Shown here: piece after piece, positions 6,528 to 9,670 of the stretch | Layout of the letters: every line of letters starts with the position of its first letter | Numbering within the stretch: the stretch's first letter is position 1 | Source of the DNA: Aldrovandia affinis | Taxonomy: Eukaryota; Chordata; Actinopteri; Notacanthiformes; Halosauridae | Assembly: GCA_029706075.1 (NCBI GenBank) | Contig: JAINUG010000208.1 | Location: 1,557,001 to 1,621,000, forward strand | Direction: 5' to 3' | Length of the DNA: 64,000 nt | The notes under the pieces: generated by a model | Database searches by the model: none | What the model was told of the DNA's origin: nothing | Seen by the model: the letters and a program-made list of their open reading frames with translations, nothing else | Position numbers and translations under genes: made by a program

Positions 6528-6738
6528 CGTCTCTGGATGAGGTAGTCCTCCAGGATGTCCAGACAGCGCACCATCTGGGAGAAGATCAGCACCCTGTGGC
6601 CCCCGGCCTTCAGCTTGGGCAGCAGCTTGTCGATTAGCACCAGCTTCCCCGCAGCCTGGACCATGGCTTGGAGAGGCAGCTCTGGCCCGGTGGTGGGGTG
6701 GGCCTCCCGGAACTCGTCCAATATCTTCTCCTCTGCTC
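6528..6738 (-). CDS. chd7: chd7 exon (15th coding): linker and helicase motif IV start
   Basis: A 211-bp exon, about residues 1159-1229. It encodes [20 protein letters not shown], then [20 protein letters not shown] and the [20 protein letters not shown] block that opens the SNF2 C-lobe. It starts in phase 1 after CTGCAG and ends in phase 2 at CG|GTACTG. The length equals the human exon as recalled. Only the stretch around PTTGPELP differs much from human. Confidence 0.96.
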
Positions 6739-7440
6739 CTGCAGAGAAAGGGGGAAGATGATGAGAGGGGAGAGTGAGAGAGAAGGCAAGACTGAATCCA
6801 TTACGGTCTCTGATTCTGGGGAATGTAAAAGACTGCCATTGAATACACATCAATTAAACAAGGGAATGAAACAACCTTACAACCAAGCTCCTGCATAGGG
6901 CAGTGTCTTTAGCATTAAGAGGCAATACAAACAGTGTCACCATTGCCCTCTTTACTGTGCAAAGCTGCATAATGTACCTGCTTTGCAAGTAACCCAGGGC
7001 AATCTACTACCTTGCATTTCACACATACTTCTTCACACAGTTGAAGTACAGGTTAAGAACCTTGCCTGACAAAAGACACTGCAACACCTGGAATTTAAAC
7101 AGCATTGCCTGAATTCCCCATTTAAAAAGTTGCAAACACCTGTTCCAAAAACTGACTTACCCACCACCTACACATCATTCGATTGATTACAAGGAACACC
7201 ATTGCCTGCTGTATCTGGTACCAGTCAACATGAAGCCAGGGGCAACATGGGACAGGAGACACCCAACATCCCTGCCCTGGATCTGTCTTTGCATTTTTGC
7301 ACTGTACTGATAGATATACGCCTGTCATTAATTCCTTTTCTGAGTTTTCTGAAACTCAATTTCTTGTGATTCCTGTAATTCAGTCCTCCATCAGTAAGAT
7401 GCCAATACAGCCTCCTTCAGACATCATTAATGAGATGATG
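6739..7440. other. chd7 intron, no gene seen
   Basis: Low-information intron. Positions 7388-7424 resemble 48,760-48,796 (CAGTCCTCCATCAGTAAGAT versus CAGTCCTCCAGTGGCAAGAT), so a dispersed repeat of unknown type is present. At 7425-7440 the sequence is already related to the 50-bp minisatellite that follows. Confidence 0.5.
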
Positions 7441-7756
7441 GAGGGTGGTTACAGCAAACCTCCCCTGTTGGTACGTACTATTAATGAGGTAGGGGTGGTT
7501 ACAGCAAACCTCCCCCGTTGGTACGTACCATTAATGAGGTAGGGGTGGTTACAGCAATCTTCCCCTGTTGGTACGTACCATTAATGAGGTAGGGGTGGTT
7601 ACAGCAATCTTCCCCTGTTGGTACGTACCATTAATGAGGTAGGGGTGGTTACAGCAATCTTCCCCTGTTGGTACGTACCATTAATGAGGTAGGGGTGGTT
7701 ACAGCAATCTTCCCCTGTTGGTACGTACCATTAATGAGGTAGGGGTGGTTACAGCA
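7441..7756. repeat. 50-bp minisatellite built from an exon end plus splice donor
   Basis: Six complete 50-bp units (7441-7490, 7491-7540, 7541-7590, 7591-7640, 7641-7690, 7691-7740) and a 16-bp partial unit (7741-7756). Read on the minus strand each unit contains GTAACCACCCCTACCTCATT, AATG and then the GTACGT (or GTACCA-flanked) donor, copying the last ~27 bases of the chd7 exon at 7729-8002 and the start of its intron. The four units at 7541-7740 are essentially identical, implying recent amplification. See findings. Confidence 0.95.
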
Positions 7757-8002
7757 CTTTCTTAGCTCCATCATGGTGTTCAGCAGGTTTGGGACATTGC
7801 CGTTGCCCCCGCCGCCCCCTGTTCCTCCAGACTTGGACAGGAAAGCAAAGTTCTTCTCCAGGATGGCGCGGTAATACTTCTTCTGGACGTTGGTGAGCTC
7901 CACCTCGATGATGGTCTCCTCCTTGGGTGCCAGGTTCTTCTCCACGTCCTCCTTCAGCCTCCTCAGCATCATGGGCTTCAGGATGGCCTGGAGCTTCTGC
8001 AC
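7729..8002 (-). CDS. chd7: chd7 exon (14th coding): end of ATPase N-lobe
   Basis: A 274-bp exon, about residues 1068-1159. It starts [20 protein letters not shown] (motif III region), continues through the conserved [14 protein letters not shown] block and ends [11 protein letters not shown] plus the first base of Gly, in phase 1. It is 18 bp longer than the human exon as recalled because of a glycine-rich insert ([12 protein letters not shown]) before [12 protein letters not shown]. The true donor at 7727-7728 (G|GTACGT) lies inside the first unit of the 50-bp minisatellite, so several identical downstream donors compete with it. Confidence 0.93.

Positions 8003-9408: not shown

Positions 9409-9670
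<262 letters not shown>

Follow-up and report, generated by a model that had tools for sequence, protein, structure and literature searches.

A tandem array of exon-end and splice-donor copies in a CHD7-like gene of the fish Aldrovandia affinis

Introns are said to arise from tandem arrays, a view reportedly due to Zhuo et al. in 2007, and the minisatellite of the human gene IFI6 reportedly has 12-bp units that keep the reading frame. The IFI6 minisatellite is reported to supply multiple splice donors, and a paper citing the IFI6 study says that minisatellites interfere with splicing; De Grassi and Ciccarelli (2009; PMC2812944) report that tandem repeats at exon-intron boundaries in human paralogs alter splicing. 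Introns derived from tandem duplication (PMC2891723), a downstream donor of Hps1 whose use introduces a stop codon and reduces mRNA (PMC4222953), and polymorphic intron minisatellites in fish growth hormone genes (PMC3045353) are likewise described or mentioned. No exon-end donor minisatellite of a fish is described among the matches listed in the open-licence literature; one may exist in print.

Here, we describe a minisatellite at an exon end of a CHD7-like gene (chd7) in the window, a 64,000-nucleotide stretch of the Aldrovandia affinis genome. Minisatellites with multiple donors and boundary repeats that alter splicing are already known, and the chd7 array is a further example. As reported for IFI6, a minisatellite would offer one intron several donors; the chd7 unit holds exon sequence. 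Compared with the 12-bp frame-keeping units reported for IFI6, the chd7 units are 50 bp long and break the frame; the 45-bp frame-keeping units of a chd8-like gene are closer. The parallel with PMC2812944 is minisatellite expansion at exon-intron boundaries, but that study reports, for segmental duplications, new introns and coding repeats that vary, whereas here an old intron gains donors. Tandem-duplication introns, as excerpted (PMC2891723), also duplicate splice signals; they are new introns whose repeat needs both a donor and an acceptor, whereas the chd7 unit has a donor and, by reading, a poor acceptor-like CAG. Intron birth within the array was set aside on reading of the sequence. Hps1, in the excerpted account (PMC4222953), similarly reaches a stop codon through a downstream donor, experimentally there and by prediction here, but has two unlike donors under Ptbp1 control and no repeat. 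The growth hormone genes share intron minisatellites of variable number in a fish gene; the excerpt (PMC3045353) does not state an exon end or donor within their units, unlike the chd7 unit.

Anatomy of the chd7 array and its gene

The exon at 7729-8002 and the exon starting at 6738 join in frame (NG/AEEKIL). Pfam assigned SNF2-rel_dom and Helicase_C to the joined translation, the best solved-structure matches carry the name Chromo domain-containing protein 1, and tblastn against human CHD6-9 sequences gave CHD7 as the best match, with provisional references, those of CHD6 and CHD9 incomplete. On its sequence the array-bearing gene looks like CHD7, of chromatin-remodelling type; the initial annotation had called it chd7, of which the gene family stands and chd7 itself depends on these provisional, partly incomplete references. 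Human CHD7 is dosage-sensitive and is associated with CHARGE syndrome. Four related CHD genes were located in the same genome. Two of them, the chd7 ohnolog (C668) and a chd8-like gene (C2049), were named by summed scores; the chd9-like (C1878) and chd6-like (C2289) genes are presumed to be such from their motifs, and by summed score both are closest to the CHD8 reference, which exceeds the CHD6 and CHD9 pieces in length.

TRF bounded the array at 7443-7756 (period 50, 6.3 copies, 98% matches, score 586), bearing out the 50-bp array reported initially, and a whole-genome search (1.22 Gb, 2576 contigs) matched it once among the best candidates scored. On the minus strand, the unit combines 28 nt that match the exon end exactly (CCCCTACCTCATTAATG on the gene strand) with 22 nt of intron from GTACGT (intron start, GTACGTACC); the proposed composition of exon end, donor GTACGT, and intron start is right, with an exon part of 28 nt by count instead of about 27 bases. 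The features of the locus, all on the minus strand, are as follows.

7729-8002, minus strand: CHD7-like conserved exon (274 nt, SNF2 ATPase region), whose 3'-terminal 28 nt (7729-7756) seed the array; from frame and boundaries, Pfam, and tblastn.
7707-7728, minus strand: authentic donor (GT 7728-7727) and the 22 intron bases belonging to the unit (unit 0); from sequence reading.
7657-7706, minus strand: extra unit 1, donor 7678, same as unit 0; from unit alignment.
7607-7656, minus strand: extra unit 2, donor 7628, same as unit 0, with TAA at 7651-7649; from unit alignment and frame.
7557-7606, minus strand: extra unit 3, donor 7578, same as unit 0; from unit alignment.
7507-7556, minus strand: extra unit 4, donor 7528, identical context, with three differences, all in the intron part; from unit alignment.
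7457-7506, minus strand: extra unit 5, donor 7478, weakened by A at -1; from unit alignment and a consensus table.
7425-7456, minus strand: decayed copy of the exon end, lacking a GT donor; from sequence reading.
6528-6738, minus strand: next exon (AEEKIL...QRR), with acceptor CTCTGCAG preceding 6738; from the junction frame, with the right end from AGACG/GTACTG.

Units 0 to 3 are identical across 50 bp and units 4 and 5 each depart from that sequence at three positions, so the newest copies adjoin the exon, and the recent expansion suspected earlier holds. Each of units 1 to 5 carries the 28 nt of exon end, with a single change there (-1 in unit 5). The donor G at 7728 (authentic) and those at 7678, 7628, 7578, and 7528 share an identical context from -3 to +6, and the sixth, at 7478, has A at -1. 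GT donors are thus present in five extra units, with identical context in four; about five equivalent extra donors had been proposed, of which four are equivalent and the fifth is weakened. Against a consensus table, the authentic donor falls at the 47th percentile among 110 donors and that of unit 5 at the 5th percentile.

Inclusion of one extra unit shifts the frame, as initially claimed, and leads to a stop in the next exon about 106 nt before the following junction. With two to five extra units, the TAA at 7651-7649 is reached; this stop, correctly placed inside the array but assigned to about the third unit, lies in the second extra unit. Three extra units restore the phase, yet include the same TAA. 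Early stops are therefore predicted for all five downstream donors (5/5), and nonsense-mediated decay is predicted to target the five products and would presumably remove them.

Two further repeats were observed. A 27-bp repeat (five copies, open acidic frame) at the L006/L007 border on C1202 (sense 73884-74017 of the joined stretch) is possibly a variable coding repeat of what appears to be the same chd7 gene. A (GA)n tract of about 260 bp at 9409-9668, TC-rich on the gene strand, seems to reach the acceptor of another exon of the gene (open frame) as an unusually long pyrimidine tract.

Sister arrays and the placement of minisatellites

The chd7 array had been taken as a single case; sister arrays are present in three other CHD genes. 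In the chd7 ohnolog, 45-bp units come after an exon ending FRVEKNLLVYG and repeat its end with GGG/GTGAGT, giving seven donors in total (six extra) of the GTGAGT type. In the chd8-like gene, the 45-bp units lie behind an exon ending HLKHQCNK and bring the AACAA/GT sites to 12 in all. Use of any of the first six extra donors would lengthen the protein in frame, by 15 to 90 residues in steps of one 15-residue unit (YALRTHKPLKHQCNK); the context of the sixth is damaged, and subsequent donors are out of frame. At the exon end homologous to that of the chd7 array, the chd9-like gene carries a decayed array of 41-bp period and about five copies, and the four copies read comprise two with GC, one with AT, and one with GT. 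Two of the sister arrays lie as follows.

L002 9117-9444 (C668): chd7 ohnolog 45-bp array, exon end FRVEKNLLVYG with GTGAGT donors.
L023 about 7446-7983 (C2049): chd8-like array, 45 bp x 11.9, with 12 exon-end/donor copies, occupying most of the intron.

On C2049, a 33-bp array (L005 8498-8602) resembles an acceptor and exon start, with a further decayed copy nearer the exon; by its sequence, this decayed array resembles a mirror case of the donor arrays. Separately, a long (GA)n tract lies about 20 nt past the ATCACAG/GTACTGAG donor of the chd8-like gene (C2049, L005), the homologue of the chd7-array donor.

Placement was evaluated over 188 conserved exons, 144 from five CHD genes (at least one of which, C2289 22017, is low-complexity noise) and 44 from five 10-kb stretches of ryanodine receptor (RYR) genes. 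Conserved exons were defined by translated comparison, with exon ends from a rough script; minisatellites had units of 20 to 150 bp and at least 2.5 copies, with simple repeats removed, and exon overlap was set at 9 nt or more. Across the 200,795 bp examined there were 26 minisatellites. Four overlapped exons, every one at a donor and all in CHD genes, a count that carries ascertainment because the starting chd7 array is itself one of the four. Random placement would give 2.6 donor overlaps (P(>=4) = 0.26) and 5.1 overlaps with acceptors, exon interiors, or whole exons, where none was observed (P = 0.0026); donor arrays are thus not over-produced, and it is the other overlaps that are missing. 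The acceptor-side array on C2049 was excluded from this count because its TRF boundary stops before the exon. With rough exon ends, a 31-bp array on C2049 was counted as a fifth at donors; it begins within the intron and drops out with refined ends. A stricter minisatellite filter misses the chd7 ohnolog array. Open frames that are not among these conserved exons carry arrays of period 27 bp (C1202) and 24 bp (C2289); where coding sequence is less conserved, repeats inside it can therefore survive.

Copies of exon ends were found beside 6/144 CHD donors and 3/144 acceptors (controls, 1/144 and 0/144), and after complexity filtering beside 3/142 donors (two dropped) and 2/143 acceptors (one dropped), with controls of 0/143 and 0/142. 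The chd7 ohnolog array is absent from the three filtered donor matches and was retained on its sequence. The donor match at C2289 22017 was rejected as GT-rich noise, and that at C2049 43143, a probable degenerate 36-bp array, was left uncounted. The acceptor match at C2049 21559 is a real decayed array; the other filtered acceptor match corresponds to the preceding exon. RYR exons had exon-end copies at 0/41 donors and 0/43 acceptors (controls, 0/43 and 0/41). The RYR stretch on C2074 (L027) contains large minisatellites within introns (29 bp x 22 and 22 bp x 25), and TGGCTCAGTAGGTAGAGC in the 29-bp unit resembles a tRNA A box.

Explanations of the arrays and their significance

The arrays are probably by-products of a minisatellite-rich genome, carried as a tolerated splicing load rather than as an evolved dosage switch. 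A 50-bp segment across the chd7 exon end and 5' splice site would have been duplicated in tandem and then expanded, the latest expansion lying beside the exon in a minisatellite-dense genome. Because duplication across the donor would spare the original exon copy and its donor, normal protein could still be made and arrays at donors would be tolerated; minisatellites overlapping conserved exons in any other manner would apparently be removed. U1 may bind every intact donor copy, most functional mRNA would come from the first donor, and leakage to later copies would yield early-stop transcripts that may then decay. According to PMC5585400, SRSF1 promotes the choice of intron-proximal donors and hnRNP A1 that of intron-distal ones, which would allow use of later copies.

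Regulation of dosage, as envisaged initially, would have the ratio of first to later donors determine what fraction of chd7 mRNA enters nonsense-mediated decay, tuned by unit number. The early stops at 5/5 downstream donors and the identical, middling strength of the donors are consistent with such a role, and the decay-coupled donor choice that controls Hps1 in the excerpted account (PMC4222953) makes the mechanism possible in principle. We nevertheless consider it unlikely, as donor columns of the copies are not significantly less variable than other columns in three arrays (variable columns, chd8-like 1/9 versus 5/36, ohnolog 0/9 versus 11/36, and chd7 1/9 versus 3/41; Fisher P, 1.0, 0.09, and 0.56), counts from which a chd8-like unit of variant length and, in the ohnolog and chd7 arrays, the authentic units are omitted. 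The sister arrays moreover differ in unit and frame outcome, one keeping GT in 1/4 copies, and donor arrays do not exceed random placement. Beyond the predicted stops, a dosage role finds no clear support in the sequence.

That a special process, such as DNA damage linked to transcription or splice sites, makes repeats at exon ends appears improbable. Five sister genes do hold four donor arrays, and one exon end bears an array in two different paralogs, but RYR genes have none at 41 donors, and such a mechanism was rejected since a donor excess is absent (4 observed versus 2.6 expected, P = 0.26).

The chd7 donor, GGTACGTACC, is a perfect 10-bp palindrome and its own reverse complement, so every added copy is also antisense to the authentic donor. 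Modelling raises the very improbable scenario of a self-masking array, in which donor-donor pairing would hide donors from U1, and chd7 splicing would depend on unit number and temperature. The array transcript is predicted to fold donor to donor (-121.6 kcal/mol; 0/100 shuffles as good; z -3.8, inflated because the shuffles do not preserve repeats). Modelled openness of the authentic donor goes from 0.0061 with the copies masked to 0.0002 with at least one copy (about 25-fold), the latter at the 18th percentile of 109 donors and within their range, and is 0.0014 under other settings. In the ohnolog, whose donor is not palindromic, masking the copies raises openness about 7-fold (register one base off); in the chd8-like array the same model gives no such rise.

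An assembly error, which the identity of units 0 to 3 might suggest, is scarcely credible given the private variants of units 4 and 5 and the decayed copy and the divergence among units of the sister arrays.

The arrays could show why repeats survive at donors and are absent from other edges of conserved exons. One genome here offers natural rows of equal or near-equal 5' splice sites (six, seven, and twelve, authentic sites included), which could reveal how the spliceosome picks among equal donors and could show splicing load limiting repeat growth. The most useful features are these rows and the confinement of exon-overlapping arrays to donors (4/4), the latter checkable in any annotated long-read fish genome.
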